42,233 nt of DNA, taken from a virus. Every line of letters begins with the position of its first letter. Positions within the stretch are counted from its first letter, which is position 1. The position numbers and the translations under genes are program-made. The stretch is taken from IMG/VR virus record IMGVR_UViG_3300025138_000090, positions 1 through 42,233 of that record. One strand, written 5' to 3'. The notes beneath the pieces are model-generated. The model was not told where the DNA came from, searched no databases, and was given only the letters and a program-made list of their open reading frames with translations. Of the stretch, positions 26,184 to 41,603 are shown piece by piece.

Positions 26184-26239
26184 CTAATATAAGAAAAAAA
26201 GGGGACTTATACAAGCCCCCTATGTTAAGAAATTGTTAA
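26184..26239 (-). promoter_or_regulatory. uvdE promoter, TTAACA-direct-repeat class
   Basis: Minus strand: TTAACA (26234-26239), 5 bp, TTAACA (26223-26228), 7 bp, CTTG (26212-26215), 20 bp, TATATTAG (26184-26191). The -33 box CTTG lies inside the stem of the terminator of the preceding hsp20 operon, and the first repeat overlaps the stop codon of the 61-aa gene. The predicted start of transcription is about 20 bp before the ATG at 26153. Confidence 0.8.
26194..26220 (-). terminator. Terminator of the hsp20 operon, overlapping the uvdE promoter
   Basis: On the minus strand GGGGCTTG...AAG-T-CCCC forms a stem (GGGG, CTT paired with AAG, CCCC, one bulge, loop of about 4), followed by a run of seven T (26194-26200). 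It lies right after the 61-aa gene. Confidence 0.85.
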
Positions 26240-26421
26240 ATATTTTCCCACTCTACATCCGTAACTTCCTCACAAAAATAATAGTAAGGTTCTTTTTTAA
26301 ATACTTTGTCGCAGTGGAGATGTTCTTTCCACGTCTGAACAATGGGTCTACTATCAATCCGAATCCTTCGTTTGACAATCCATAGAGTGTTGTTTATATT
26401 TAAAACTTCTTTCCTAAACAC
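26236..26421 (-). CDS. Hypothetical protein (61 aa) after hsp20
   Basis: A small basic protein with an acidic tail and aromatic residues (KKEPYYYFCEEVTDVEWEN). It starts with GTG at 26421, sharing one base with the TAG stop of hsp20, so it depends on translational coupling. No family is recognised. Confidence 0.5.
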   Translation of the reverse strand: MFRKEVLNINNTLWIVKRRIRIDSRPIVQTWKEHLHCDKVFKKEPYYYFCEEVTDVEWENI

Positions 26422-26768
26422 TAACTTATAGTTATATCAATAACTTTAGCTTTCTTTTCTTCTATCTTTGGAATGGATACTTTAAGAACACCATCTTTTA
26501 CTTTAGCTGAAGTTTTGGATGCATCCCAATCTTCACTAATGTTATATCTTTTGTTGAACGTTCTATCATCGTTATCACCTTCAATAAGAAGAATAGAATC
26601 TTCTATTTTGATACTGATATCTTTTTTTGATAGACCTGGTACATCAAACTCCATAGTCAATACATCATCTTCCAATTTCATATTACTATTGGTGGTTGGT
26701 TTTGGATTAAAGTGATTTCTCTTAATGAGTTCATCTACTAAATTCCACGCGTGGTTTGTTAAAATCAT
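26421..26768 (-). CDS. hsp20: Small heat-shock protein, Hsp20/alpha-crystallin
   Basis: A 115-aa sHsp that would hold unfolded proteins in a refoldable state. The alpha-crystallin domain spans about residues 30-115: EDDVLTMEFDVPGLSKKDIS, EDSILLIEGDND, and the DGVLKVSIPK strand with the LxVxIPK signature. The N-terminal arm is short and no I-x-I C-terminal extension is obvious apart from ITIS. T4-like marine phages often carry hsp20. The gene has an AAAGGAAAT site and its upstream region has two TGACA-N3-TGTCA palindromes but no -33 box, suggesting activated or stress-linked control. Confidence 0.9.
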   Translation of the reverse strand: MILTNHAWNLVDELIKRNHFNPKPTTNSNMKLEDDVLTMEFDVPGLSKKDISIKIEDSILLIEGDNDDRTFNKRYNISEDWDASKTSAKVKDGVLKVSIPKIEEKKAKVIDITIS

Positions 26769-26803
26769 AATTTCCTTTTATTTTAGTTAAACAATTCAGT
26801 TTA

Positions 26804-26872
26804 CTATAGTACGAATAATGTACCAAAGGTATTTTACTGACATTTTGTCATATACATACTGACACTTTGTCT
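26804..26872 (-). promoter_or_regulatory. hsp20 promoter with two palindromic operators
   Basis: A -7-like box TACTATAG (26804-26811) within CGTACTATAGTA has no TTG at the proper distance. Instead TGACATTTTGTCA (26838-26850) and TGACACTTTGTCT (26860-26872) lie 22 bp apart centre to centre. The near one is centred 33 bp upstream of the -7 box (roughly -41), a position typical for activators. Confidence 0.6.
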
Positions 26873-27326
26873 AATTTAGAGAGATTGCAGGGCCCTGTCC
26901 TATAAGATTGTATGATAAAATAACATCCCAAGGTTCAAATTTAGTAAATTGGATTTCCCTATCACTTAACATCATACCATTCATTTCTAAATCTCTTGCT
27001 ACTTTTAGTATAACATCCAACGTTGGACCTGTTATTATGAGTTTATCTGTAGATATCTGAACTGTAACTGGGTTTCTTATAGAATCACGATTATCAAAAT
27101 CAGGTTCTAATTCATCATCATCTTCCGTATCACCCATTGATTTTAAAGCATCATTCATTATGTTTAACATATCGTTTTCTGTGCCAAATTCCATTTCACC
27201 TAAATGTTCACCAATACATAAATCATATATGTACATAAGTTTATCATTATCTTCTAATGTTGAGAAAAACTCAAACTCAGATTCATCCCAGTATGTTTCA
27301 AAATCCATTGTATAATCTCCACTCAT
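26871..27326 (-). CDS. Acidic hypothetical protein (151 aa)
   Basis: A very acidic protein (Asp/Glu-rich, with TEDDDELEPDFDNRD near the middle) and no recognised domain. The C-terminal half (VTVQISTDKLIITGPTLDVI) looks like a beta-alpha unit, perhaps a small ferredoxin-like fold. A shorter start at the second Met is possible. It overlaps the upstream 61-aa gene by 4 bp (ATGA). Confidence 0.55.
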   Translation of the reverse strand: MSGDYTMDFETYWDESEFEFFSTLEDNDKLMYIYDLCIGEHLGEMEFGTENDMLNIMNDALKSMGDTEDDDELEPDFDNRDSIRNPVTVQISTDKLIITGPTLDVILKVARDLEMNGMMLSDREIQFTKFEPWDVILSYNLIGQGPAISLN

Positions 27327-27508
27327 TTTTTGAAATCGTTAATAATATCTTTAGTTAACCACGCTGGTTCACTTGTGAAGTGTTTAAAATAAGGTTCACT
27401 AATTAGATATAGTTTAAGTTCCATAAATTTGTTATCATCATCTTTATCGGTTGATAAGATATCGATTACTTTTTGTCTGTATGGTTCTTCTATATAGTGT
27501 ATGCTCAT
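27323..27508 (-). CDS. Hypothetical protein (61 aa)
   Basis: Small helical protein (EPYRQKVIDILSTDKDDDNK) with an aromatic C-terminal part. It overlaps the next gene by ATGA and follows the 136-aa gene after 22 bp. No family recognised; real because of coupling and close packing. Confidence 0.5.
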   Translation of the reverse strand: MSIHYIEEPYRQKVIDILSTDKDDDNKFMELKLYLISEPYFKHFTSEPAWLTKDIINDFKK

Positions 27509-27530
27509 TTGTTATAAATATTGGGTGATA

Positions 27531-27941
27531 TTATTTTCCTTTGTAGATTTGGTTTAAAACTATTAAAGTTTCTTTAGTTAGGGCCCATTTATTTTTTTCT
27601 ACGGTGTTTAGAATTAACTCTAAGAACTTTTGAATATGTAGTTCAAGCTCTCTACCACTTTCAAAAATAGTATCAATACGTTCTACTAAATTAGTAATAT
27701 ACCCTTCACCAATTATCACATCGGATTCTAAGTATCGTTCAGTCATATATCGTTCTGAGAACCATTGGTGTGGTTTGGCATCCATCGTAACTGCTTTTTT
27801 GTAAACAGTATCCAAGTATTCAGATAGGGTTAATACATCGGGTATGGTCTTAGAAAAATGTTTATAATTAACCCACTCTCTAGCGGATTCCATATCCCCA
27901 TCACCTAATCCTAATTCTTTAAATAAATCTTCTGCCTTCAT
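27531..27941 (-). CDS. Hypothetical helical protein (136 aa)
   Basis: A 136-aa, largely helical, slightly acidic protein (MKAEDLFKELGLGDGDMESA at the start; a C-terminal helix with KWALTKETLIVLNQIYKGK). No motif is recognised. It sits in a run of small same-strand genes of the middle region, with short spacers. Confidence 0.55.
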   Translation of the reverse strand: MKAEDLFKELGLGDGDMESAREWVNYKHFSKTIPDVLTLSEYLDTVYKKAVTMDAKPHQWFSERYMTERYLESDVIIGEGYITNLVERIDTIFESGRELELHIQKFLELILNTVEKNKWALTKETLIVLNQIYKGK

Positions 27942-27954
27942 TCATATTGGTTTG

Positions 27955-28251
27955 TTATGAAAACAATCCCAACTGAATTTTTCTATGATGGGTAGATTTC
28001 GCATCTTCTAATGTTGTAATTATTTTATTACATTCGGACCACGTTAACTCAACACGCTTTCCACCTACTACTAAATCACCAATCGGATTACTTCTTTCTT
28101 TATAGTTACTTAAAGTAATTTTATCACTTAATTCAAAATCTATTGAGTTGTAATTCTTACCCATAGATTCAAACTTTTTTCTATCTTTGTGGTGAGTTGC
28201 TCCACCTTGATTTACAGTTCCTCTTGGTTTTCCGTTATATCGTTTCATCAT
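27955..28251 (-). CDS. Basic hypothetical protein (98 aa)
   Basis: A Lys/Arg/His-rich N-terminus (MKRYNGKPRGTVNQGGATHH) suggests nucleic-acid or polyanion contact. The C-terminal half is polar and helical, ending KSTHHRKIQLGLFS. No known domain. The start may be the first or second Met. It follows a 60-bp A+T-rich gap in which only a weak -7-like sequence (TACTTATTAG) is seen. Confidence 0.5.
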   Translation of the reverse strand: MMKRYNGKPRGTVNQGGATHHKDRKKFESMGKNYNSIDFELSDKITLSNYKERSNPIGDLVVGGKRVELTWSECNKIITTLEDAKSTHHRKIQLGLFS

Positions 28252-28311
28252 TTTAAATTTAATTGTTTAACTTATACTAATAAGTATTAAATAAACTTTA
28301 ATGAAACTATA

Positions 28312-28605
28312 TTATTTTTTATTTCTTTTGGAGATTCTAGCGAACTTAGCTTCAAATGATTTTAAGTCCATTCTCTTAGGGTGAGTTCTTTCAATGTTCT
28401 GATTAATTTTCATTGTATCCGCAAACCAAAACCACGCTCCCGCTACAGTTTTTTGATTCGGAATCATATACTCGTTGGTGAGGAAATTACCCTCACCATC
28501 GTGTACATAATACAGTCCACTGGAATCTCTGATAGTTTTAGCTTTTGGATACTTAGCAATTACTTTCTTTTGTAATCTTTTAAATTTAGCTTTATCAATT
28601 TCCAT
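28312..28605 (-). CDS. Basic hypothetical protein (97 aa)
   Basis: A 97-aa basic protein with a helical N-terminus (KAKFKRLQKKVIAKYPKAKT), a short beta section (SGLYYVHDGEGNFL) and a basic end. It resembles small conserved proteins of marine T4-like phages in general shape, but I cannot name a family. The stop lies 60 bp before the next gene. Confidence 0.5.
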   Translation of the reverse strand: MEIDKAKFKRLQKKVIAKYPKAKTIRDSSGLYYVHDGEGNFLTNEYMIPNQKTVAGAWFWFADTMKINQNIERTHPKRMDLKSFEAKFARISKRNKK

Positions 28606-28608
28606 TTC

Positions 28609-28881
28609 TTAATTATTATTTATTATATCAATAGTATCGTTTATAAGTTTGTTGGTCTGTGTCTGTTGGTTCACAAATGATTTTGTTAACCTACTATCTA
28701 TGTAAGTTGTTACAGTTCCTTCATCTACATAAACATTTTCATGTTCTTTACCATCTTCTGTATGGATGAGATATCTATAACCCTTTACAGTTTTAGCCTT
28801 TTCAGTTACACTTCCAACTCTATTTACTCCAAATACATTAACCACTACAGTACTTCCTATAAGATATGTTTCTACTGCCAT
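28609..28881 (-). CDS. Hypothetical protein, SH3-like barrel suspected (90 aa)
   Basis: A beta-rich N-terminal 60 residues (TYLIGSTVVVNVFGVNRVGS, then YRYLIHTEDGKEHENVYV) reminiscent of SH3/KOW-like barrels, with a polar helical tail. The resemblance is only in pattern. The ATG at 28881 overlaps the stop of the DUF4494-like gene by one base, so the two are coupled. Confidence 0.45.
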   Translation of the reverse strand: MAVETYLIGSTVVVNVFGVNRVGSVTEKAKTVKGYRYLIHTEDGKEHENVYVDEGTVTTYIDSRLTKSFVNQQTQTNKLINDTIDIINNN

Positions 28882-29078
28882 TATATTACTTTTATAATTC
28901 TAGTTTCTAATACAGATGTAACTTCAAACTCAACAGAATCATTCTTAAATTCTTCGTGAACTTTAGTTTCTGCATCTGTTACAGATACAGCGTGTACTAA
29001 ATACTCTTCTACGTTTTTCTTTTGTCTACCTTTATCATCTTGTGTGATAACTTTTACTTTTGCTTTGTAATACTTCAT
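28881..29078 (-). CDS. DUF4494-like protein (65 aa)
   Basis: Matches the pattern of the Bacteroidetes family DUF4494: YYKAKVKVITQDDKGRQKK, then EEYLVHAVSVTDAETKVHEE and the FEVTSVLETRIIKVI end. Family members are short (often 100-150 aa); this one is only the core. Function is unknown, but its restricted distribution supports a Bacteroidetes host for the phage. The downstream gene starts on its last base. Confidence 0.6.
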   Translation of the reverse strand: MKYYKAKVKVITQDDKGRQKKNVEEYLVHAVSVTDAETKVHEEFKNDSVEFEVTSVLETRIIKVI

Positions 29079-29091
29079 ATTTACTTTTTTA

Positions 29092-29499
29092 TTAATTATT
29101 AAATGTTAAATTATACTTGTCTAATAGTTCGGTTTCTGATATAAGAGAATACTCTCCATTACATTCACCACCTTCCATATCTTCCACAATTAAGTGAAAC
29201 ATCTGAACAACCTTATCTCCATCATGTTGTCTACCCGCTGGGATAACCATCAATTGAAGTGGAAGGAATTTGTTTTGGTATGATTTCCATACTCTCGGCC
29301 CAATCTCTTCTGGTCCTTTGTCAAATCGTTGTCGTAAGTGTTCGAAATAAGATTCATCCATTTCTTTCCACTCATCGTAGTTTTGATACTCTTGTGAGGC
29401 TTCATCTTGTGCCTTAGTTAGAGCTTCTTTTTCGTTATCTGATAACTCATTCCAAAAATCATCTGGAATCGGATTATCGTTTAGTAAATCTTTACTCAT
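29092..29499 (-). CDS. Acidic hypothetical protein (135 aa)
   Basis: A 135-aa acidic protein. The N-terminal half is helical and rich in Glu, Asp and Gln (DDFWNELSDNEKEALTKAQD); the C-terminal half is more beta-like (LPLQLMVIPAGRQHDGDKVV). No named family. It overlaps the upstream wHTH-like gene by 8 bp. Confidence 0.5.
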   Translation of the reverse strand: MSKDLLNDNPIPDDFWNELSDNEKEALTKAQDEASQEYQNYDEWKEMDESYFEHLRQRFDKGPEEIGPRVWKSYQNKFLPLQLMVIPAGRQHDGDKVVQMFHLIVEDMEGGECNGEYSLISETELLDKYNLTFNN

Positions 29500-29797
29500 T
29501 TTTATTTATATTTAATTTATAAGTTGGTTCATCGGAATCAGAATCTACAGATTCTACTAATCCCTTTTTAATTAAATCACCCATAGTTCTATCTATGTTT
29601 TCTCTAATAACATCTTTGGAAATCTTCTCAGCTAATTCAAATAACATTCCGAATGTAGTTGTATCTTCATCTAACTTAGATACAGCGTTGAGATAGCGGG
29701 GTCTGAACTTATGTTCATCAATCCACTCATTATCGAAGAATCCATCTTCGGTTAGTGTTTCTAATATTGCTTTAGCTCCTACTTGCTTTTTATTCAT
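29492..29797 (-). CDS. Hypothetical protein, winged-helix-like C-terminus (101 aa)
   Basis: I use the ATG at 29797. A longer reading from GTG 29854 would begin upstream of the -7 box and so outside the transcript. The C-terminal 45 residues (IRENIDRTMGDLIKKGLVES, then EPTYKLNI) look like a helix-turn-helix with a wing, so it may be a small DNA-binding regulator, but this is only by pattern. Its promoter lies 15 bp upstream, giving a very short leader. Confidence 0.5.
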   Translation of the reverse strand: MNKKQVGAKAILETLTEDGFFDNEWIDEHKFRPRYLNAVSKLDEDTTTFGMLFELAEKISKDVIRENIDRTMGDLIKKGLVESVDSDSDEPTYKLNINKNE

Positions 29798-29811
29798 AAT
29801 AATTCTTTTTA

Positions 29812-29843
29812 CTAATATACAAAATAATTTCTTAATTTCCAAA
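29812..29843 (-). promoter_or_regulatory. Promoter of the 101-aa gene
   Basis: TTTG (29840-29843), exactly 20 bp, TATATTAG (29812-29819). The ATG is at 29797, so the leader is about 8 nt. It starts just after the hairpin at 29848-29879 that follows the AAA+ gene. Confidence 0.75.
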
Positions 29844-29847
29844 TAAT

Positions 29848-29879
29848 CTCCCACCTATTTGTAATGAGGTCGGTGGGAG
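29848..29879 (-). terminator. Hairpin after the AAA+ gene, terminator-like
   Basis: Perfect 8-bp stem CTCCCACC/GGTGGGAG with a 16-nt loop, 27 bp after the AAA+ stop codon. On the minus strand it is followed by ATTATTTGG rather than a clean T run, so termination may be partial. Confidence 0.5.
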
Positions 29880-29906
29880 TTCTTTGGGAGTAATCAAGAG
29901 TAATTA

Positions 29907-31190
29907 TTAAAATGGGTTTGAGATGTCAACATTTTCAGTTGAACCACCTTCTACGTTAAATAAATCTTCTTCTTCAGTAGAACCAACAAACTTTTGAACG
30001 TATTGTTTAACGTAAGTTCTTTCTGATTGAGCTCCACCAGCTTCTTCAAACAATGGGTAGATAGTAATCTCAGCGGCTTCTGATAAGGTGAAACCATCAT
30101 ACAGTAGAGAACCAATCTCAACTGCCGTTCTAGTCGAAAGTGAATTCGATAGAGTTGGAGTTTCTTTCTTAACATCACCTCTAGTCATTGAAGTAATCTT
30201 AGCAACGTTAGTAAGAACAACTTCATCAACCGAAGGATACATCATCATAAGTAATGAAGTTTCTTCCTCAGAAGTTAGAGTATCCATTTCGATGATTGTA
30301 AATCTATCAACGATTGCTCTATCCAATTGTCTAGTCGATGTGTATTCGTTACCGATGTTAGCGGAAGCGATAAAGGAAACACCTTCAGCAACTTTCACTA
30401 CTGGTGAATCAGCCGCTTCATCTAATCTTAAATATCTTTGTCCAACATCTAATACACTCATTAGAATGTTGTGAGCTTCAGGATGTGCTCTAGTAATCTC
30501 ATCCAATACAATAACTGTATTTGGGGTTTGGATAGCTTTCACAAATGGTGAAGGAGAGAACACAGTACCTTTTTTAGTATCGAACTGAGTGTTACCGATT
30601 AGAGTAGCTCTCGGGTCTTGTGTAGAACCTAAGTTAAAAATCTCCATAGAGTAACCTTCAATGGAATTAGCGGCGGCTTTAGCGGCCATAGTTTTACCAC
30701 AACCAGCGGGACCAGTCATCATAATATTCTTACCTCTCAGAATGTTTCTGATTAGGTACTTCCACTTCAGTTCGTTCATAAACAACATCTGTGGTTTTAA
30801 ATCTTTGGATTCATTGTGGATGAACTTTAGGAAATCTTCTTCCATTGGTTTATCTGCAACTTCCATAGTTGGTTTTTGTTTCATTTGAAATTGTTCCAAC
30901 CCACCATTAGGTTTGTTGAAGTTAGTTACAGGTTCAGAACCATTGAACTTCTCACCTGGAACTCTGTTGAACTCAACAGAACCATCCGTAAGGTTTCCAC
31001 TAATTCTAGCTTTGATACAGAACTTAGTTGGATTGTTAGCGGCGGATATACACCTTTTATAAAGTGAAGAACCCACTTCATTTAATTGTGGAACGAAGAA
31101 CTCAGTTCCATTGGTATCGATAAGGATAATCTCCTTATTCTCATTTTTCTTTGATTGAAGGAAAACACTTCTTTGACTTTTATTACTCAT
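29907..31190 (-). CDS. MoxR/CobS-like AAA+ ATPase
   Basis: A 427-aa AAA+ protein. Walker A is GPAGCGKT (160-167), Walker B is IVLDEI with D230 and E231, sensor 1 is N278 in SANIGNE, and arginine-finger candidates are R291 and R296 in DRAIVDRF. About 125 unrecognised N-terminal residues precede the ATPase core. MoxR/CobS-type ATPases work with VWA-domain partners (CobT, CoxE and others) to remodel proteins or insert metals, and a VWA gene lies just upstream. It has its own TTAACA-class promoter. The target in infection is unknown. No Shine-Dalgarno site is seen. Confidence 0.85.
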   Translation of the reverse strand: MSNKSQRSVFLQSKKNENKEIILIDTNGTEFFVPQLNEVGSSLYKRCISAANNPTKFCIKARISGNLTDGSVEFNRVPGEKFNGSEPVTNFNKPNGGLEQFQMKQKPTMEVADKPMEEDFLKFIHNESKDLKPQMLFMNELKWKYLIRNILRGKNIMMTGPAGCGKTMAAKAAANSIEGYSMEIFNLGSTQDPRATLIGNTQFDTKKGTVFSPSPFVKAIQTPNTVIVLDEITRAHPEAHNILMSVLDVGQRYLRLDEAADSPVVKVAEGVSFIASANIGNEYTSTRQLDRAIVDRFTIIEMDTLTSEEETSLLMMMYPSVDEVVLTNVAKITSMTRGDVKKETPTLSNSLSTRTAVEIGSLLYDGFTLSEAAEITIYPLFEEAGGAQSERTYVKQYVQKFVGSTEEEDLFNVEGGSTENVDISNPF

Positions 31191-31232
31191 ATATTTACTA
31201 TTTAATTATTACTATTAACTCTTATTACTCTA

Positions 31233-31288
31233 CTAAAGTACGACTTATATTTTACAATTCCTAATTTTTAATGTTAACAAATTGTTAA
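31233..31288 (-). promoter_or_regulatory. AAA+ gene promoter, TTAACA-direct-repeat class
   Basis: TTAACA (31283-31288), 5 bp, TTAACA (31272-31277), 7 bp, TTAG (31261-31264), 20 bp, TACTTTAG (31233-31240). The 3' end of the 59-aa gene runs into the repeats. Its leader begins TAGTAGAGTAATAAGAGTTA, nearly identical to the leaders of the 59-aa and VWA genes. Confidence 0.85.
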
Positions 31289-31453
31289 ATCTTTTGATAG
31301 AGAAACTTTCTCTAATGTATTGTAGATGGTATTAAACCCACTAACTGCCTCATTCGGATTAACTTCTTTAGCTCCCACTAACTCACCATTAACCTTAACC
31401 GTTACCATTGAACCTGTCAACTCTAACTCATACTTACCAATCGATTTTTTCAT
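31274..31453 (-). CDS. Small hypothetical protein (59 aa) between VWA and AAA+ genes
   Basis: A 59-aa ORF read directly: it starts MKKSIGKYELELTGSMVTVK and ends LEKVSLSKDLTIC. The first 30 residues form a beta-hairpin-like pattern, followed by a helical segment. It has a dedicated promoter 55 bp upstream and the same leader sequence as its neighbours, which argues that it is a real, co-regulated gene and possibly a third part of the AAA+/VWA module. No family recognised. Confidence 0.65.
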   Translation of the reverse strand: MKKSIGKYELELTGSMVTVKVNGELVGAKEVNPNEAVSGFNTIYNTLEKVSLSKDLTIC

Positions 31454-31507
31454 ATTTTTTATTTTTTAATTTTTAATTCGGTTAAACTCTTAACCCTTAT
31501 TACCCTA

Positions 31508-31571
31508 CTAATGTACGACTTTTTTTTGAATAAACCAAACTTATTTTGATTATTTTCAAAAAGTTATTAAC
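31508..31571 (-). promoter_or_regulatory. Promoter of the 59-aa gene
   Basis: TTTG (31536-31539), 20 bp, TACATTAG (31508-31515). GTTAATAAC (31563-31571) lies 23 bp upstream of the -33 box, exactly as at the VWA promoter. There is no TTAACA pair. Confidence 0.75.
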
Positions 31572-31575
31572 AATT

Positions 31576-33723: not shown

Positions 33724-33758
33724 ATATTTTTTATTTATTATTAACCCTTATTACCCTA

Positions 33759-33833
33759 CTAAAGTACGACTTTTTTTCCATTTAAACAAGCTTTTTAACG
33801 TTTATTTTCAAAAGTTATCAACAAGTTATTAAC
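33759..33833 (-). promoter_or_regulatory. Promoter of the VWA gene
   Basis: CTTG (33787-33790), 20 bp, TACTTTAG (33759-33766). Upstream, GTTGATAAC (33814-33822) and GTTAATAAC (33825-33833) form a direct repeat with 11-bp period; the nearer copy is 23 bp from the -33 box. The leader TAGTAGGGTAATAAGGGTTA is shared with the 59-aa gene. Confidence 0.8.
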
Positions 33834-34061: not shown

Positions 34062-34117
34062 CTAAAGTACGAAAAAATAATGATATATCCTAATTTCTAA
34101 TGTTAAGAAATTGTTAA
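34062..34117 (-). promoter_or_regulatory. Promoter of the 65-aa membrane gene, TTAACA class
   Basis: TTAACA (34112-34117), 5 bp, TTAACA (34101-34106), 7 bp, TTAG (34090-34093), 20 bp, TACTTTAG (34062-34069). Upstream AAAGA precedes the first repeat as at three other promoters. Confidence 0.85.
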
Positions 34118-34167
34118 ATCTTTGGGGGCGGTGATAGTGATTGTGTAAATAACTGACTATCAGTTGA

Positions 34168-35480: not shown

Positions 35481-35489
35481 ATTAGAATA

Positions 35490-35533
35490 CTAATATACGA
35501 AAATTATTTGACGTACACAAGCTTTTGTGTTAA
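35490..35533 (-). promoter_or_regulatory. Promoter of the 85-aa gene
   Basis: CTTG (35518-35521), 20 bp, TATATTAG (35490-35497). One TTAACA lies 6 bp upstream of the -33 box (35528-35533) and a degenerate copy TTAAAA 11 bp further, a variant of the TTAACA class. It lies just downstream of the tRNA-Glu gene. Confidence 0.7.
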
Positions 35534-35550
35534 TTAATTTTTAAAGTTTG

Positions 35551-35622
35551 TACTCCGTAGGAGAATCGAACTCCTATTTTATGGATGAAAACCATATGTC
35601 CTAACCGTTAGACGAACGGAGC
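35551..35622 (-). tRNA. tRNA-Glu (anticodon TTC)
   Basis: Complete cloverleaf: acceptor GCTCCGT/ACGGAGT (first pair G-U), anticodon stem ATGG/CCAT with loop TTTTCAT, T-arm AGGAG-TTCGATT-CTCCT. 72 nt with discriminator A. No CCA is encoded. It directly follows tRNA-Ala (3-nt spacer). Confidence 0.93.
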
Positions 35623-35625
35623 AGG

Positions 35626-35702
35626 TGGTGGAGAATATCGGACTCGAACCGATGACCCCTACGGTGCAAGCGTAGTGCTCTAGCCAGCTGAGCTAATTCC
35701 CC
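35626..35702 (-). tRNA. tRNA-Ala (anticodon TGC), CCA encoded
   Basis: Acceptor GGGGAAT/ATTCTCC (one G-U), D-stem GCTC/GAGC, anticodon stem CTACG/CGTAG with loop CTTGCAC, T-arm ATCGG-TTCGAGT-CCGAT. The 3' CCA is encoded, unlike the two neighbouring tRNAs. Confidence 0.95.
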
Positions 35703-35714
35703 ATCCGATTGGAG

Positions 35715-35993
35715 TTACCCTTTAAGTATCTCCTTCCCTTTTTCATCAATTTGAGTCGTTGGTATATTAGCCCCATATTCGTTACCGAAGTTTTTAGAGA
35801 GTGTATCCAACTTACCAGTTGAGGATTCTAACTGACCTAATAGTTTATCTATCTCTTCAGTAAATTGTGGGTGTTCACCTATTGCAACAGGTGATTCGAA
35901 ATAAACAGATAATCGTGCTCTTGCATCTAATATATCTGCGGTGTATCTAGCTTCTAATGCCTGATACAATCTTCTTGAAATCTTATGATTCAT
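35715..35993 (-). CDS. Hypothetical protein (92 aa) between tRNA genes
   Basis: A helical protein (SRRLYQALEARYTADILDAR at the N-terminus; DKLLGQLESSTGKLDTLSKN near the middle). Resembles short conserved proteins of marine myoviruses but is not identified. It stands between tRNA-Arg and tRNA-Ala in one transcription direction. Confidence 0.6.
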   Translation of the reverse strand: MNHKISRRLYQALEARYTADILDARARLSVYFESPVAIGEHPQFTEEIDKLLGQLESSTGKLDTLSKNFGNEYGANIPTTQIDEKGKEILKG

Positions 35994-36042
35994 GTTATTG
36001 GTTTTAATGTTAACTTATTAATAAATATTAAAATATATTTAG

Positions 36043-36116
36043 TGAACCGAGTAGGATTCGAACCTACGACCTACAGATTAGAAGTCTGTTGCTCTATCCA
36101 ACTGAGCTACCGGTCC
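36043..36116 (-). tRNA. tRNA-Arg (anticodon TCT)
   Basis: 74 nt with acceptor GGACCGG/TCGGTTC (two G-U pairs), D-stem GCTC/GAGC, anticodon stem ACAGA/TCTGT with loop CTTCTAA, T-arm GTAGG-TTCGAAT-CCTAC. Reads AGA, a common codon in this A+T-rich genome. No encoded CCA. Confidence 0.94.
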
Positions 36117-36125
36117 TTCGGTTAA

Positions 36126-36683
36126 TTAATTTACGATTCGGATTACCTCATCTTTTGATTTATTCATTAGTGTAGATTTTGATTCATCTAAAGAATCTCT
36201 TACGTTTTCATACCACTCTTCATACTTCTCAGAATCATCCCAATCAGGTTCTTCACCAAAAGAATCTTCTTTTAAATTTCCTTTTAAGTGTTTGAACTTA
36301 CCTCTATATCCTGCACCACCACCATGTGTATTATATATGTTTTCATCTTCAAATTCATAACTCATAATAACATCATTATCTATTTGGTGTAATTGTTTTG
36401 TTAGTTCTTCAAAGGCTTGAATTGGTGGATACCATGCTGATTCTAAATTAATAGAACCATATGATTCAGTTAAATCAGTATCAACCATATAACACCACTT
36501 AGTTCCTATCTTATCTACATAATCAGTTCTATCGTATGGTACATCACCATATAGTTTATTATATAAGAACATAGTTTCAAACATATCCTTATGTTCTATT
36601 CCTTCAAACCATTTAGTTAAGAATTCAAATACCTTTGGGTTATCTGATTCTATTTCTATTCTAGTGTTTATTATATTTGCCAT
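36126..36683 (-). CDS. Hypothetical protein, Api92/DUF1281-like fold suspected (185 aa)
   Basis: A 185-aa acidic protein. The stretch GTKWCYMVDTDLTESYGSIN, then ESAWYPPIQAFEELTKQL, resembles the ferredoxin-like domain of Api92/YubB-type plasmid and phage proteins, where a similar AWxPP motif occurs. The C-terminus is acidic and helical. The role of that family is not established. Its start overlaps the upstream gene by one base. Confidence 0.5.
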   Translation of the reverse strand: MANIINTRIEIESDNPKVFEFLTKWFEGIEHKDMFETMFLYNKLYGDVPYDRTDYVDKIGTKWCYMVDTDLTESYGSINLESAWYPPIQAFEELTKQLHQIDNDVIMSYEFEDENIYNTHGGGAGYRGKFKHLKGNLKEDSFGEEPDWDDSEKYEEWYENVRDSLDESKSTLMNKSKDEVIRIVN

Positions 36684-37051
36684 TAACTAAAATCGTTATT
36701 GTACTTAGCGTTAAACCCATTGTACTTAGTGTACTCTTCATCAATTTTACCAGCTTCCATAGTTATCGTATCACTCTTCATTCGTGAATCAAACATTTCT
36801 TGGGTTGGATATTCGTAAAACGCCTGCCACAACTTATCCTTTAAATCTTCAGAAAAGTTATCTTCGTTATCTCCGATGTATTCTTCAGCTTCCCAATCGG
36901 AAAGGTTATCGTTTATATAATCCCAAAAATCTTCTTCAGTTTCACCTTTATATGGTGGTACTGCGTTTCTGAAATCTTCTGAATCTAATGTGATTGCCTC
37001 TGTTACTTGTGTAAGAGTGTAGGTTGTTCTACTTCTAAAATCTAATTTCAT
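36683..37051 (-). CDS. Acidic hypothetical protein (122 aa)
   Basis: A very acidic protein with helical patches (DWEAEEYIGDNEDNFSEDLK) and aromatic residues. No family recognised. It follows a small membrane-protein gene by 4 bp and shares a one-base overlap with the next gene, so it belongs to the same coupled block. Confidence 0.5.
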   Translation of the reverse strand: MKLDFRSRTTYTLTQVTEAITLDSEDFRNAVPPYKGETEEDFWDYINDNLSDWEAEEYIGDNEDNFSEDLKDKLWQAFYEYPTQEMFDSRMKSDTITMEAGKIDEEYTKYNGFNAKYNNDFS

Positions 37052-37055
37052 AATG

Positions 37056-37166
37056 TTAATAGATAAATAATGAGTACACTATTAACGATATGTATAATCC
37101 TAGTGCACTCATTAGGAATATATCTCCTGTATCTACTTTAGATACAAATCTTTTAATCTTCTTCAT
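37056..37166 (-). CDS. Small single-TM protein (36 aa)
   Basis: Read directly as MKKIKRFVSKVDTGDIFLMS followed by ALGLYISLIVYSLFIY. A basic N-terminus is followed by a hydrophobic C-terminal half, fitting a tail-anchored membrane peptide. Its start overlaps the end of the nucleotidyltransferase gene by 14 bp. Plausible but short. Confidence 0.45.
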   Translation of the reverse strand: MKKIKRFVSKVDTGDIFLMSALGLYISLIVYSLFIY

Positions 37167-37608
37167 TTTTTAATATGTTTGGGTTTTGTTTAACTGTTTG
37201 TATTGTTATTAAATTCTTTAACTTAGTTGTACTCCATCCATGTGACCTGGTGGTGTATATAACTTTCGGTGGGAGGTCATCGCCTGTAAATGATTTACCA
37301 ATGTAATCATCACCTAATATTCTGATATCTGGTTTGAAGAACTCTATTAGTTTATATAGTTCATTTTCGGTTTGGTATGTATATACCTCATCAACATCTT
37401 CTAATGCCATCAAAGTGGTGTGTCTATCATATAAAGGAATGACAGGTTTATACTTAGTATATCTAGTGGCTGAAGGGTCTATTTGTAAGAATACAATAAA
37501 CGTATCACAATGACGTTTAGCTTCTTTAAATGTATGTATATAACCAGGATGTATTAAATCAAAGTTACCAGCAGTGAACCCTAAAGTTCCGTTTCTTTTG
37601 TGTTCCAT
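37153..37608 (-). CDS. Cytidylyltransferase-like nucleotidyltransferase
   Basis: A 151-aa protein of the HIGH/HxGH nucleotidyltransferase superfamily: TAGNFDLIHPGYIHTFKEAK carries the active-site loop, and RSHGWSTTKLKN matches the second motif (ISSTxLRxR-like). The second His of HxGH is Tyr here (H20-P-G-Y23). Members activate alcohol or sugar phosphates with CTP or ATP (for example glycerol-3-phosphate cytidylyltransferase). It may modify cell-surface or phage glycans. The real start is ATG 37608 inside the end of the 54-aa gene. Confidence 0.75.
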   Translation of the reverse strand: MEHKRNGTLGFTAGNFDLIHPGYIHTFKEAKRHCDTFIVFLQIDPSATRYTKYKPVIPLYDRHTTLMALEDVDEVYTYQTENELYKLIEFFKPDIRILGDDYIGKSFTGDDLPPKVIYTTRSHGWSTTKLKNLITIQTVKQNPNILKNEED

Positions 37609-37745
37609 CGTTTTAAAACTTTATATATGTACTTAATACTATCCCCATCACCTATTAACCACTCTTTTTTGTGGTATAATGAATGAATACGCTCATCATC
37701 CATAGCTTTAAGTTGGGCTAAACTGTGTACATAACTCTTATTCAT
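37581..37745 (-). CDS. Small hypothetical protein (54 aa), probably leaderless
   Basis: Read directly: it begins MNKSYVHSLAQLKAMDDERI, ends KRWNTKETEL, and its end overlaps the nucleotidyltransferase gene by 28 bp. Basic-helical, no family recognised. The -7 box at 37750-37757 ends five bases before the ATG, so the mRNA would start at or next to the ATG. Confidence 0.6.
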   Translation of the reverse strand: MNKSYVHSLAQLKAMDDERIHSLYHKKEWLIGDGDSIKYIYKVLKRWNTKETEL

Positions 37746-37749
37746 TTAT

Positions 37750-37781
37750 GTAATATACAAAATTAATTCCATATATCCAAA
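37750..37781 (-). promoter_or_regulatory. Promoter of the 54-aa and nucleotidyltransferase genes
   Basis: TTTG (37778-37781), 20 bp, TATATTAC (37750-37757). The start codon at 37745 is only 5 bp away. There are no TTAACA repeats upstream. Confidence 0.7.
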
Positions 37782-37783
37782 TA

Positions 37784-38146
37784 TTAATGTGTATATTTTA
37801 GTTTGGGTTTTCTAAATATTGATAATGGAATGGTTACAGATAAACTACCCATCATAGTAGCGAGTAAATCTCTTTCATCAAAGTAGTTACCCACTCTCCA
37901 ATTATCAAATGATTCTTTAGCTATACCAGCAGTTAATCCTACTCCCAATCCGATGAAGAATGCTTTCTTCTTATTTCCGTATTTTCGTAGAGCCCATTCG
38001 TATCCAATAGTGGTAACGATTACTCCAGCAGTAAAGTGATATTGTTTATCTTTTTCAGTTAGTATGAATTCTCCGTATTGGTAGAATTGTCCATAAGTTG
38101 ATTGACATGCAACCAACATTATGATTAGTAATTTTATTCGTTTCAC
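37784..38146 (-). CDS. Predicted lipoprotein, YfiM-like (120 aa)
   Basis: The signal peptide MKRIKLLIIMLVACQS has a lipobox-like LVAC, so the mature protein may be lipid-anchored at Cys14. The mature part shows the pattern DKQYHFTAGVIVTTIGYEWA, GLGVGLTAGIAKESFDNWR and DLLATMMGSL seen in YfiM/DUF2279-type phage and bacterial proteins. Probably a periplasmic or outer-membrane protein acting late at the cell envelope (lysis or exclusion). It overlaps the upstream 61-aa gene by 4 bp. Confidence 0.65.
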   Translation of the reverse strand: MKRIKLLIIMLVACQSTYGQFYQYGEFILTEKDKQYHFTAGVIVTTIGYEWALRKYGNKKKAFFIGLGVGLTAGIAKESFDNWRVGNYFDERDLLATMMGSLSVTIPLSIFRKPKLKYTH

Positions 38147-38328
38147 TTAATACTCCCAACTGTATTTGAATGTGTTCTAAATCCTATGATTGGGGTATGA
38201 CCTGTAATCTCATTCTTTCGAATATCAATTAGTTGTTTCGTTAACATTAACGTTTCAACATCTTTTTCATTGTTAACCCAATCTGTAAATAGATAGGTTA
38301 GTACTTTACTTTTTACTTTTTTAAACAT
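38143..38328 (-). CDS. Hypothetical protein (61 aa)
   Basis: Basic N-terminus (MFKKVKSKVLTYLFTDWVNN) and a polar C-terminus (GFRTHSNTVGSIK). No motif recognised. Coupled to the lipoprotein gene by a 4-bp overlap. Confidence 0.45.
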   Translation of the reverse strand: MFKKVKSKVLTYLFTDWVNNEKDVETLMLTKQLIDIRKNEITGHTPIIGFRTHSNTVGSIK

Positions 38329-38333
38329 AATTT

Positions 38334-38522
38334 TTATTTATTAATTTTTACTAATTTACTACACTTCTCATAATCCTCAATACCTTCAAAATGTTTCAAT
38401 AACATTTCGGAATCTTCGTGATTGATAGGTAGGTAGAATTTTGATTGTTCTGCTAACTTATCGTAAGTGGTCTCCCCCACTAATAGTTGATAAGCGTTGT
38501 TGTATGATTCATCTATACTCAT
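38334..38522 (-). CDS. Hypothetical protein (62 aa)
   Basis: Small helical protein (MSIDESYNNAYQLLVGETTY at the start). No family recognised. It is spaced by 3 bp from the zincin gene upstream and 5 bp from the next gene, consistent with a real operon member. Confidence 0.45.
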   Translation of the reverse strand: MSIDESYNNAYQLLVGETTYDKLAEQSKFYLPINHEDSEMLLKHFEGIEDYEKCSKLVKINK

Positions 38523-38525
38523 ATC

Positions 38526-38957
38526 TTAATTAAACATTAACCAATTAGATTCTTCTTTGGTAGCTGCTACTTCGTATGGATGATTACCATAATGGTATCC
38601 CATATCATAATATCGTTTCATCCATATTGGAGATTGTAAATGGTGTTGATATTCGTGAATCAAAGTTTGAATCACATCTTTTCTATCTTTCATCTTAGGA
38701 TGATAAACAACAATAGTGTTTAATTCTCTATCGTATTCAGCGGCGGGGTCGGCTTCTCCGAACTCTTCTACTTCGGTAGGATAATCATCCTCACCCATTT
38801 CTAAATCTTCACCGATGATTCGTAGATAAATGTTGTGATGGAGTTCAGTATAAGGAGTACATTCGTGGAACTTAGAAATTCCATAGTGTTTCTCTATCTT
38901 AGGATAAACCTCATCAACAACATTTTGAACCTCTTCTTTAGTCATTAAGTTTTTCAT
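38526..38957 (-). CDS. Zincin-like metallopeptidase domain protein (143 aa)
   Basis: HEYQH (101-105), in DVIQTLIHEYQHHLQS, is the HExxH zinc-binding motif. A later Glu (E129, HPYEVAA) could be the third ligand, as in gluzincin-type folds. The N-terminal part is helical and polar. This is a small metallopeptidase-like domain; catalytic activity is probable but the substrate is unknown. It lies in the early/middle block together with a nucleotidyltransferase and small lipoproteins. Confidence 0.65.
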   Translation of the reverse strand: MKNLMTKEEVQNVVDEVYPKIEKHYGISKFHECTPYTELHHNIYLRIIGEDLEMGEDDYPTEVEEFGEADPAAEYDRELNTIVVYHPKMKDRKDVIQTLIHEYQHHLQSPIWMKRYYDMGYHYGNHPYEVAATKEESNWLMFN

Positions 38958-38966
38958 ATCTATATT

Positions 38967-39299
38967 TTAGTATCCAACAAAATCAATCTTAACACAATCG
39001 GTAACAGTACCTAACTTAACAAAGTATGGCCATTCTTCGTTCAACCAATAGTTTTGAACACCATCTAATTCATTTAAACAACCTTTGTATAGTTCTTCAA
39101 CGTGATAACCATCTCCGTATTTGATACCACCACACAACTCCATCAGTTCGTTGAGTTTATCCCAATTATCTTTATTCTTTTCTATTTGAATTTCGATTTC
39201 TGTTTTCATTAGTTCGGAAACTTTATCGTTCCAATCGTACATCTCATTAGACCACGGCTTTACTACTTTAGGTTTTTCGGTATTTAACATATTTATCAT
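38967..39299 (-). CDS. Hypothetical protein (110 aa)
   Basis: Acidic, helical, Trp- and Glu-rich (WNDKVSELMKTEIEIQIEKN) with a C-terminal beta-like part (GTVTDCVKIDFVGY). It could start at the fourth residue. Its promoter belongs to the TTAACA class and its leader contains two perfect hairpins. No family recognised. Confidence 0.5.
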   Translation of the reverse strand: MINMLNTEKPKVVKPWSNEMYDWNDKVSELMKTEIEIQIEKNKDNWDKLNELMELCGGIKYGDGYHVEELYKGCLNELDGVQNYWLNEEWPYFVKLGTVTDCVKIDFVGY

Positions 39300-39324
39300 T
39301 TTTTAATTATTACTATTACTACTT

Positions 39325-39358
39325 GGAGATTTATCTCCCTCTTTACTACATAGTAAAG
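39325..39358 (-). other. Two perfect hairpins at the start of the 110-aa gene's transcript
   Basis: On the minus strand CTTTACTATGTAGTAAAG (39341-39358) is a perfect 8-bp palindrome with a 2-nt loop, overlapping the -7 box. GGAGATAAATCTCC (39325-39338) forms a 6-bp stem. Both would lie at the 5' end of the mRNA. Confidence 0.6.
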
Positions 39359-39409
39359 ATACGACTAAATTCGTTAATAAACAAGCTTTCAATGTTAAGA
39401 AATTGTTAA
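39354..39409 (-). promoter_or_regulatory. Promoter of the 110-aa gene, TTAACA class
   Basis: TTAACA (39404-39409), 5 bp, TTAACA (39393-39398), 7 bp, CTTG (39382-39385), 20 bp, TATCTTTA (39354-39361). An AAAGA motif precedes the repeats. Confidence 0.8.
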
Positions 39410-39418
39410 ATCTTTACC

Positions 39419-39434
39419 CCCACCCAAATGTGGG
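39419..39434 (-). other. Small hairpin after the 114-aa gene
   Basis: CCCAC/GTGGG stem with a 6-nt loop, followed on the minus strand by a G-rich run and the TTAACA promoter. No T-tract, so a weak or partial terminator at best. Confidence 0.3.
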
Positions 39435-39470
39435 AAAGTGTGTGAACTTTTAGAAAAATTTTAGGAAAAT

Positions 39471-39815
39471 TTATTCAAACCATTGGGAACGATTAGTCTT
39501 ATGGTTCTTAACCTTTAAATCAGGTTTATCTAAATCCATTTCACTCATCTTATCTATTATAGATTGAGTACGTTTATCATCACCCTCTTTACCTATCTTA
39601 CCTGCCTTCTCTATAAGGTCATTTGTAATATCTTCACCTCTACTTTGAGCATCCATAGCCGCAAATCGTTTAGTGTGATATTGGCCTAATGGTTTGGTGA
39701 ATCCTTTTAAATACTCAGCTTTAGAATCTAAGTATTTTAAGAAGGAATCGAAATCTTCGTTTCCTAACTTATCTAATTCTTCATCCGATAAAGGATTGTT
39801 AGAATCATATATCAT
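39471..39815 (-). CDS. Acidic hypothetical protein (114 aa)
   Basis: Helical, acidic protein (NPLSDEELDKLGNEDFDSFL at the start) with a polar basic patch near the end (VKNHKTNRSQWFE). No family recognised. It overlaps the upstream 68-aa gene by 4 bp, so the pair is coupled. Confidence 0.5.
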   Translation of the reverse strand: MIYDSNNPLSDEELDKLGNEDFDSFLKYLDSKAEYLKGFTKPLGQYHTKRFAAMDAQSRGEDITNDLIEKAGKIGKEGDDKRTQSIIDKMSEMDLDKPDLKVKNHKTNRSQWFE

Positions 39816-40018
39816 AACTTACCCCCATCTAATTTACCACTCTCTATATCCATAATAAGAAACTCAATTCTTTGTTGTGCGATATACGGTGAATCTTCTT
39901 TTAATAATTGATTGATTTGGTTGAGGTTCTTTATTACTAACCTCTTTGAACATAAAGGAGATTGAGCGGGTGTAAACCCATTATCTATCCATCCTTGTAC
40001 TTTATCTCTTAAACTCAT
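39812..40018 (-). CDS. Hypothetical protein (68 aa)
   Basis: Small helical, mildly basic protein (MSLRDKVQGWIDNGFTPAQS at the start) ending in an acidic stretch. No domain recognised. It is first in a two-gene operon driven by a TTAACA-class promoter 26 bp upstream. Confidence 0.5.
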   Translation of the reverse strand: MSLRDKVQGWIDNGFTPAQSPLCSKRLVIKNLNQINQLLKEDSPYIAQQRIEFLIMDIESGKLDGGKL

Positions 40019-40043
40019 AATTTTGATTGTTTATATTAGACTA

Positions 40044-40099
40044 CTAATATACGAATAATAATCCAACTATCCAAATCTAATTTGTTAAATCTTTGTTAA
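40044..40099 (-). promoter_or_regulatory. Promoter of the 68-aa gene, TTAACA class
   Basis: TTAACA (40094-40099), 5 bp, TTAACA (40083-40088), 7 bp, TTTG (40072-40075), 20 bp, TATATTAG (40044-40051). A GTTAATAAC copy lies 25 bp upstream of the -33 box (40101-40109). Confidence 0.85.
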
Positions 40100-40153
40100 A
40101 GTTATTAACACCATAGGTGAATACAATCACTTAAAGTTATAACCATTGGTGAA
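40096..40153. repeat. Imperfect direct repeat upstream of the 68-aa gene promoter
   Basis: Two copies, 35 bp apart: TTAAAGTTATTAACACCATA ending AGGTGAA (40096-40121) and TTAAAGTTATAACCATTGGT ending GAA (40131-40153). Both contain a GTTATNAAC-like core and a CCATAGG/CCATTGG tail. Possibly an extra regulatory site; no ORF here. Confidence 0.45.
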
Positions 40154-40204
40154 GGATAACTAAAAAAAAGTGAGGTAGATTAAAATCAGTAAAGTGCTGA
40201 AGAA

Positions 40205-40444
40205 CTACTTAATACTATCCTTAGTTATAGTAGGGAGTATAATGATAACCCCATCCTTCTTAACTAAATCAAAGTTTACCTTCGTATCTGTAACAGAGGT
40301 ATCCTTTACCCCTGTATGGGAACAACATTCCTTCTGAGGAAGAGAGGAACTCCTACACGAAGAAATAGAACCAAACAACACCAACCCAAAAAGGAGTAAT
40401 CCAATGGCTATTACAGTATCCCAAAAATTTTTATTCTTTTTCAT
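40205..40444 (-). CDS. Predicted small lipoprotein (79 aa)
   Basis: N-terminal hydrophobic stretch (DTVIAIGLLLFGLVLFGSIS) with a lipobox-like ISSC, then a short Ser/Cys/Thr-rich mature part ending near ILPTITKDSIK. The layout is that of small phage lipoproteins such as Rz1-like spanins, but there is no supporting partner identified next to it except the TM protein upstream. A terminator-like TTCAG/CTGA hairpin and T run follow. Confidence 0.5.
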   Translation of the reverse strand: MKKNKNFWDTVIAIGLLLFGLVLFGSISSCRSSSLPQKECCSHTGVKDTSVTDTKVNFDLVKKDGVIIILPTITKDSIK

Positions 40445-40454
40445 CCATTCTCTT

Positions 40455-40688
40455 TTAAAAAGGTAACATAGTCATTCCTACCTTATTCAGTAGAAACTCC
40501 ATAACACAGACAAAGGTTAAACCACCTACTATTTGCCATACCCAATACTTCCAACCAGTCAATCCTTCTTGCCACTTACGGAAAGATGATTTTCTAGCCC
40601 ATTCGTATATACCTAACTTTTGGTTGATTTTATCAGCCCACCATCCTACATCAAATAGGTTACCTATAAACACTAATATTTTTTTCAT
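40455..40688 (-). CDS. Small membrane protein (77 aa)
   Basis: Aromatic N-terminal half (IGNLFDVGWWADKINQKLGI) and a membrane segment near 48-66 (VWQIVGGLTFVCVMEFLL). Function unknown. It starts just after the TGA of the 42-aa gene and precedes the predicted lipoprotein by 10 bp. Confidence 0.5.
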   Translation of the reverse strand: MKKILVFIGNLFDVGWWADKINQKLGIYEWARKSSFRKWQEGLTGWKYWVWQIVGGLTFVCVMEFLLNKVGMTMLPF

Positions 40689-40689
40689 A

Positions 40690-40818
40690 TCAATAAGTAT
40701 CCTTATGTTTAGATTTACGAGTATATACCTTCTTACTCTTCTGAATAGAACCTCTCATAGCCGACCATATCTCTTGCATGGTTAACTTAACCTTTACCAA
40801 TTTTTTATCAGTTCCCAT
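40690..40818 (-). CDS. Small basic protein (42 aa)
   Basis: Read directly: it begins MGTDKKLVKVKLTMQEIWSA and ends TRKSKHKDTY. Lys-rich (about one third basic), possibly nucleic-acid binding. It overlaps the end of the upstream membrane-protein gene by 25 bp and its stop runs into the start of the next gene. Short, but the tight packing supports it. Confidence 0.5.
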   Translation of the reverse strand: MGTDKKLVKVKLTMQEIWSAMRGSIQKSKKVYTRKSKHKDTY

Positions 40819-40991
40819 ATCAAACTCCCTATCAGTAAAATACCCAATGCTAAGAAGGATACAAATGCTCCCATATAGGAAGCTTCCATCTGTTGTGGTG
40901 ATTTACCTTGATTAATAATTTCGTTACCTTCGTTATAATGGTGATTTCCTCCTGAAACCTTACCCATCCAAATCCATTCTTTTTTATTCAT
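40794..40991 (-). CDS. Small membrane protein (65 aa)
   Basis: Polar N-terminus (GGNHHYNEGNEIINQGKSPQ) followed by one membrane segment (about 41-60, AFVSFLALGILLIGSLIWEL). No family recognised. One of several small membrane proteins that cluster in this early block. Confidence 0.5.
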   Translation of the reverse strand: MNKKEWIWMGKVSGGNHHYNEGNEIINQGKSPQQMEASYMGAFVSFLALGILLIGSLIWELIKNW

Positions 40992-41022
40992 ATCTTTACT
41001 ATTTTAATTATACATCATTTTA

Positions 41023-41166
41023 TTATATATACCTATATATCCTTTCAGAGAGGTTTTCTATAGGGAGAAAAGCGAACACCGATACGCAAACCCATAACAC
41101 GCGGTTATAAGTCATTGATTTTCTGAGGATTACGTTTAAATACCCCCACCCCCCTCTCTCAGTCAT
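41023..41166 (-). CDS. Possible small membrane protein (47 aa), TAATG-coupled
   Basis: Its ATG overlaps the TAA stop of the 66-aa gene by one base (TAATG), which suggests reinitiation. It begins MTERGGWGYLNVILRKSMTY and has a hydrophobic segment VLWVCVSVFAFL, then a polar tail ending YRYI. GGG codons at the start are unusual here, so I am not certain it is translated; a start at the second Met (30 aa) is also possible. Confidence 0.35.
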   Translation of the reverse strand: MTERGGWGYLNVILRKSMTYNRVLWVCVSVFAFLPIENLSERIYRYI

Positions 41167-41176
41167 TAGGACTGAG
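41158..41176 (-). other. Hairpin over the stop codon of the 66-aa gene
   Basis: CTCAGTC/GACTGAG stem of 7 bp with a 5-nt loop that contains the TAA/ATG overlap. It is followed on the minus strand by a G-rich run, not by T. It may influence reinitiation. Confidence 0.35.
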
Positions 41177-41366
41177 GTTGAGGATTGGTATCCCACTCTC
41201 TCCCAATAAAGTAATCCAACTTCCTATGAGCTGAATCAACCCCTCTTAGGTTCTTACTGGCGATTGCCTCGTTAAGGATTCCACTCCAATAGGTTATCTT
41301 ATCCCAATACCCATTCTCGTAGCTCTTACCTACTTGTCTTACCCTACCATACTCATTCTTTGTCAT
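41166..41366 (-). CDS. Hypothetical protein (66 aa)
   Basis: Basic, aromatic protein (NEYGRVRQVGKSYENGYWDK near the start). The C-terminus is polar (REWDTNPQPQS). No family recognised. First gene after the right-end control region, so it is probably among the first expressed. It has a long leader (about 165 nt) with several hairpins. Confidence 0.5.
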   Translation of the reverse strand: MTKNEYGRVRQVGKSYENGYWDKITYWSGILNEAIASKNLRGVDSAHRKLDYFIGREWDTNPQPQS

Positions 41367-41538
41367 ATATCTGTTATTTAGTTAATTTTTATTTAGTTCA
41401 CTTTTTTTTGTTACCCAATCGTATCGAGAAGCTACTCCCCCATTGGGTTTGGATATTCGTTTCGTATCATAGGGGAGCTTAATCCCTCAACTACTTTGAA
41501 CCTGTATCAAAATTCTTAAACCTCAACCTTAATACACT
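41367..41538 (-). other. Long, possibly structured 5' leader of the 66-aa gene
   Basis: About 165 nt between the transcription start and the ATG, far more than at the other promoters. ACCCAAT/ATTGGGT stem (41413-41448) encloses an inner GAGTAGCTTCTC element; GATA/TATC and GGGA/TCCC stems lie upstream of it. No ORF and no terminator T run. It may be a regulatory or stabilising leader, but this is only a structural impression. Confidence 0.35.
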
Positions 41539-41603
41539 ACAATATAGTGATAATATTTAACATATACAAGCTTTTAATGTTAAATTTATGTTAAGTTATT
41601 AAC
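41539..41603 (-). promoter_or_regulatory. Promoter of the 66-aa gene, TTAACA class
   Basis: TTAACA (41589-41594), 5 bp, TTAACA (41578-41583), 7 bp, CTTG (41567-41570), 20 bp, TATATTGT (41539-41546). A GTTAATAAC copy (41595-41603) abuts the repeats. Confidence 0.8.

Follow-up and report, generated by a model that had tools for sequence, protein, structure and literature searches.

Pho boxes are made of two 11-nucleotide direct repeats (PMC4415409). In cyanobacteria the box reads PyTTAAPyPyT/A, and it is established that promoters of cyanophages can be under the control of the host PhoB, which binds them (PMC10976474). The PhoB protein of B. fragilis binds the pstC promoter, the box not being given (PMC3547664). 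WalR recognizes the consensus TGTWAH-N5-TGTWAH (PMC4168254), and sigma-A promoters of Bacteroidota carry the motif TAnnTTTG (PMC9723704). Here we analyzed IMG/VR virus record IMGVR_UViG_3300025138_000090, a stretch of 42,233 nucleotides called the window below, in which a set of promoters carries two TTAACA copies in tandem upstream of a Bacteroidota-type -33/-7 core. We propose that these repeats may be a Pho-box-like operator.

The window contains exactly six units of the form TTAACA-N5-TTAACA-N7-(-33)-N20-(-7), all on the minus strand (Table 1). As stated in the preliminary description, each unit is composed of an exact repeat pair, exactly 7 bp, a CTTG, TTTG or TTAG box, exactly 20 bp and a TAnnTT-type -7 box. 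The sequence TAnnTTnG proposed for the latter is exact in four of the six, the units at 39354 and 41539 having close variants. Repeat pairs number six in the window against a mean of 0.046 in 1000 dinucleotide shuffles, and a complete unit was never obtained in these shuffles. A weight matrix was then trained on 72 sites of other phages, the window being left out. It scored exactly the six units (37.6 to 56.2 bits) and nothing else, and gave no score above 0 on 20 shuffles of the window. Shuffle counts and matrix scan together rule out simple A+T-rich chance as the origin of the units.

The window is a 42-kb fragment of a marine phage of Bacteroidota, of T4 size. Synteny of its genes extends to records of 167-180 kb (G014, G028 and G024) and to the 266-kb G022, in which T4-type terminase and clamp loader genes are present; in our reading, these records probably also encode a sliding clamp and a family-B polymerase. 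Relatives carry the promoter layout too. It was present in 14 of 14 relatives found via a 715-aa protein of the window, with up to 28 copies in whole records, almost all on one strand (coding), whereas a reversed-pattern control gave 0 in 44 records. In eight T4-like sequences, 77 of ~86 repeat-to-box pairings share one gap and one distance to the -33 box. When numbering sets TAnnTTTG at -12 to -5 (PMC9723704), the -33 box lies at -36 to -33 and the half-sites at -49 to -44 and -60 to -55. The C of TTAACA is invariant in 79 of 79 aligned sites, a base that the search pattern itself demanded. The core has the features of Bacteroidota sigma-A promoters: a TTG-like -33 box and a TAnnTTTG-like -7 box ~20 bp apart, located before coding-strand genes. 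The upstream part has the tandem direct repeats and 11-bp period of a Pho box or OmpR/PhoB operator. The existence of two promoter classes, one served by a factor bound upstream, is well supported by the near invariance of the pair-to--33 distance; the repeat-type promoters would depend on an activator, and their expression would be timed.

The same layout extends to other phage groups. The full pattern was found in at least 120 IMG/VR stretches, compared with 74 in genomes of bacteria and archaea (257 Gb), where almost every match came from Bacteroidota. G031 and G284, which appear crAss-like to us from their giant 2000-aa proteins on the opposite strand, carry 11 and 10 copies respectively, with a reversed control of 0 in both. 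G042 is a distant T4-like jumbo phage (26-28% terminase identity; reversed control 0), where ~25 near-identical repeat promoters lie within 25 kb (141-166 kb; L603, L604), all on one strand. In this phage the 7 bp between the pair and the -33 box are kept although the -33/-7 spacer varies between 20 and 21 bp, so that the repeats appear tied to the -33 box. A motif scan of relatives found no site in immuto, Mel-JY01, G260 or G254, and at most one in G262.

To account for these observations, we favor, with confidence slightly better than even, that the repeats are a Pho-box-like operator for a regulator of the OmpR/PhoB family, which in the window's lineage would probably be the PhoB-type regulator of the host. 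The two half-sites, 11 bp apart and centered at ~-52, would bind two winged-helix domains of such a regulator, arranged head to tail along the same face of the helix. With the nearer half-site ending 7 bp upstream of the -33 box, the dimer could contact region 4 of sigma-A and/or the C-terminal domain of the alpha subunit. Once bound, it would recruit host RNA polymerase and switch on a distinct class of phage genes. We infer that a PhoB-type protein binds the repeats, that its binding activates, that it comes from the host and that some signal or time governs it.

The family of the factor is suggested mainly by G042. At 159801-160211 this phage encodes a 136-aa protein with a Trans_reg_C domain (PF00486, E 1e-20) and without a receiver domain. 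Its best NCBIfam match is a Bacteroides-type PhoB (E 6e-23) and it is close to solved PhoB domains. It shares 41% identity over 87 aa with a PhoB-type regulator of Bizionia, compared to 33% and 28% with the other two PF00486 proteins of Bizionia, and its recognition-helix region, RTIDVHIRRIR, almost coincides with those of the Bizionia PhoB-type regulator (RTIDVHIRKLR) and of E. coli PhoB (RTVDVHIRRLR), the resemblance to the other two Bizionia proteins being lower. The gene sits within the ~25-promoter cluster and has its own promoter of the class, TTAACA-N5-TTATGA-N7-TTTG-N21-TATATTTG at 159732. Judged by position and sequence, it appears to be the strongest pointer to the family of the factor. 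PF00486 was not found in G014, G028, G024, G022, G027, G031, G284, immuto or Mel-JY01, and a profile search for divergent OmpR-type proteins in the other phages gave insignificant matches only. Because the tested relatives encode no such domain, the factor in the window's lineage is most likely a response regulator of PhoB type supplied by the host.

Host chromosomes also contain the repeat. A count over 60 Flavobacteriaceae genomes gave 296 copies of TTAACA-N5-TTAACA versus 144 of the reversed control, while with N7 spacing the counts are 96 versus 112. Many of the surplus sites precede the same families across many genera: rpsF, DUF4442, DUF4331, CoA_binding_2, a secreted lipoprotein and a ~185-aa membrane protein. 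A -7 box was found 29-33 bp downstream of the pair in 38 host matches, usually at 31 bp, which is the phage distance; 30 other spacings taken as a control gave about 65 matches, fewer per spacing. Most of the 38 are contributed by the promoter of the ~185-aa membrane protein. The full layout also stands at one PHO4 phosphate transporter gene of Bacteroidales. From the conservation of these sites, a host factor probably reads the repeat. The preliminary description had attributed the repeat promoters to an unknown factor. A factor acting upstream is retained, but an unknown phage protein is not required, since box layout, host sites and the G042 gene point to the PhoB type.

Two side observations concern host genes. 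In Flavobacteriaceae (L407, L412, L416, L427-L456), the uncharacterized ~185-aa membrane protein has a promoter without a clear -33 box, where a TTAACA pair stands 31 bp from TACATTTG and is deeply conserved. The full layout is also found at HU-HIG genes of Prevotella, with several such genes in a genome (L036, L048, L058, L062, L072, L076, L091, L092).

Several findings weigh against a PhoB-type regulator. The PhoB-like gene was found in one G042-type phage only (five contigs, identical protein). Host chromosomes seldom contain the complete architecture, with 4 matches in 199 Flavobacteriaceae genomes; this rules out a host regulon of the exact architecture in that family, the bare N5 pair being still enriched. 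The ~60 host sites that were read stand mostly at genes unrelated to phosphate, with essentially none near pst/pho genes, and a classic phosphate regulon in the host is thus doubtful. Finally, in the window's clade the motif co-occurs with a phage helix-turn-helix (HTH) protein.

This HTH protein is the main alternative for the window's clade. A protein of 67-77 aa encoded beside the DNA polymerase would bind the repeats as tandem monomers and act as a MotA-like switch of middle genes, a possibility that we regard as rather unlikely while giving it more weight than the other alternatives. In G014 it is a stand-alone 72-aa protein (63496-63714; L236:3496-3711) adjoining the DNA polymerase, and its gene has a repeat-free promoter. 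No other protein is as well conserved between G014 and the jumbo phage G022 (70%). Of 66 families common to four motif phages, seven have no match in two motif-free relatives; the HTH protein is among these and, judged by HTH matches, is the only one resembling a DNA-binding regulator. It was found in all 8 large motif phages of the clade, but in none of the motif-free immuto (IMM), Mel-JY01 (MEL), G260 and G254, nor in G262. However, G042, G031 and G284 have the same promoter layout and lack the protein, which weakens it as a sole explanation. Conserved TTAACA-N5-TTAACA sites are found in host chromosomes although the HTH protein belongs to phages, its closest phage matches are parts of HNH endonucleases, and its co-occurrence with the motif could merely mark one clade. 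More generally, seven candidate phage proteins were checked and none is common to all motif carriers. A PhoB-type regulator from the host, or derived from it, is the better guess in view of the OmpR/PhoB box layout, the conserved host sites and the PhoB-type protein of one jumbo phage.

Independently of this comparison, the 72-aa HTH protein shows 80-99% identity across most of a set of 80 phage contigs. G272 encodes the HTH protein and has, by the strict pattern, a single full site over its 168 kb. It was not used as a counter-example because its contig appears to lack a large part of the region that bears the motif in G274.

The mixed, mostly non-phosphate genes behind the conserved host sites would also fit another conserved host regulator, outside the OmpR/PhoB family, reading the repeats and also controlling the rpsF, DUF4442 and CoA-binding promoters. 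We hold this to be unlikely: it leaves unexplained both the PhoB-type gene in the G042 cluster and the 11-bp hexamer-N5-hexamer layout. An UP element, where C-terminal domains of the RNA polymerase alpha subunit contact A/T tracts without a dedicated factor, appears very unlikely. The spacer and the N7 segment are indeed A/T tracts near -52 and -41, and Mel-JY01 promoters lack TTAACA and have A tracts ahead of the -33 box, but the invariant C (with the reservation made above on the search pattern), the strict 5-bp spacing and the host footprints suggest sequence-specific recognition. Least probable of all is that the pair is an operator for repression, to which some host DUF4442 sites without a recognizable -7 box at the usual distance might point, since activators typically bind where this pair lies, outside the polymerase core footprint on its upstream side and at a constant distance from the -33 box.

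Table 1. Repeat-type and other promoters of the window
Feature	Position	Strand	Repeat pair	-33 box	-7 box	Context
Repeat-type promoter 1	26184..26239	-	26223-26239	CTTG	TATATTAG	upstream of UvsE (25257-26162)
Repeat-type promoter 2	31233..31288	-	31272-31288	TTAG	TACTTTAG	upstream of AAA+ ATPase (29907-31190)
Repeat-type promoter 3	34062..34117	-	34101-34117	TTAG	TACTTTAG	upstream of 65-aa membrane protein, then 715-aa protein
Repeat-type promoter 4	39354..39409	-	39393-39409	CTTG	TATCTTTA	upstream of open reading frame 38967-39299
Repeat-type promoter 5	40044..40099	-	40083-40099	TTTG	TATATTAG	upstream of open reading frames 39812-40018 and 39471-39815
Repeat-type promoter 6	41539..41594	-	41578-41594	CTTG	TATATTGT	upstream of open reading frame 41166-41366
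Probable degenerate seventh member	35490..35544	-	TTAAAA-N5-TTAACA, then 6 bp	CTTG-N20	TATATTAG	
Non-repeat promoter	857..888	-		TTTG-N20	TATATTAG	
Non-repeat promoter	23961..23992	-		TTTG-N20	TATATTTG	precedes head-maturation-protease-like gene and structural block
Non-repeat promoter	29812..29843	-		TTTG-N20	TATATTAG	
Non-repeat promoter	31508..31539	-		TTTG-N20	TACATTAG	
Non-repeat promoter	33759..33790	-		CTTG-N20	TACTTTAG	immediately before 715-aa gene
Non-repeat promoter	41718..41749	-		CTTG-N20	TATATTAG	

The promoters listed beforehand as devoid of repeats do share the -33/-7 spacing; the one at 37750 ends in TATATTAC and not in TTnG. The list had also missed a promoter at 35490-35521, which has a degenerate pair; its ortholog in L019 (L019:4232) has a perfect one. 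Among the genes downstream, the protein at 25257-26162 is UvsE (TIGR00629, E 5e-71). PHROG matches of the 715-aa protein include a cobalamin-biosynthesis family, and we read this protein as probably vWA/CobT-like. At the UvsE promoter, a hairpin resembling an intrinsic terminator (GGGGGCTTGTATAAGTCCCC followed by a T run; 26188-26224, minus strand; -13.7 kcal/mol, z -3.9) encloses the -33 box. This overlap is kept in relatives and is also seen in the crAss-like G031.

Among isolates, Flavobacterium phage immuto and phage Mel-JY01 have the closest terminases (58% each); the phage collection that we searched contains no cultured member of the window's clade. Mel-JY01 (PP395634.1; L373-L376), labelled a 'Microcystis' phage, has many Bacteroidota-type promoters (TTG-N20-TAnnTTTG) and resembles the Bacteroidota phage lineage of the window, so its stated host may be wrong. 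In immuto (NC_055915.1; L369-L372), sigma-A-like promoters are not in excess on the coding strand (29 versus 30), and this phage may therefore use another transcription system. A phage of the window's lineage also occurs as a contig in a metagenome-assembled genome of Schleiferiaceae (L031, L067), possibly a hint to the host or a binning artefact.

The literature that was searched gave no match for TTAACA in Bacteroidota promoters or for this promoter class. Two things are new: Bacteroidota phages of three groups share a whole class of promoters, and one phage encodes a PhoB-type protein that lacks a receiver and seems to lie within its own regulon. It is conceivable, although we would not put it at even chances, that unrelated groups of Bacteroidota phages (T4-like, distant T4-like jumbo and crAss-like) have each, on their own, placed a large class of genes under one PhoB-type operator. 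The majority would borrow the regulator of the host, and one would use a captured receiver-less PhoB effector, no longer needing phosphorylation, as an autoregulated master switch. Temporal control of transcription in Bacteroidota phages seems little known. If our proposal is true, a short DNA signature would tell which phage genes answer to a two-component regulator of the host, phage gene expression would be tied to host physiology in marine bacteria, and hijacking of host PhoB, so far a matter of a few genes in cyanophages, would reach whole classes of genes in several groups of phages.

How does this promoter class compare with described systems? With the sigma-A promoters of Bacteroidota it shares the -33/-7 core and its spacing, the tandem repeat at a fixed distance being an addition. 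The lambda CII site (TTGC-N6-TTGC) likewise places direct repeats one helical turn apart beside a promoter, but CII half-sites flank the -35 box; here the sequence is different and both repeats precede the -33 box. The middle promoters of T4 (MotA/AsiA), to which the preliminary description had compared the window, are likewise a second class in a phage of T4 type, set apart by an additional element upstream, and the functional analogy holds. The MotA box, however, is located around -30 and replaces the -35 box, whereas here the tandem repeat, at ~-60 to -44, stands upstream of an intact -33 box, and the analogy does not extend to the layout. The reverse complement of the pair, TGTTAA-N5-TGTTAA, fits the WalR/VicR consensus exactly, but this is a Firmicutes regulator and the host here belongs to the Bacteroidota. 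Pho boxes and PhoB promoters have in common with the present class the two direct repeats, the 11-bp period and, in the cyanobacterial box, the TTAA core; they differ in that the phages here retain a -33 box 7 bp downstream and that the link to phosphate is only putative. As in cyanophages, T4-like phages would borrow a regulator of the host, G042 having a PhoB-type protein of its own, but in another phage and another host phylum, and with boxes that mark many promoters rather than those of a few metabolic genes.

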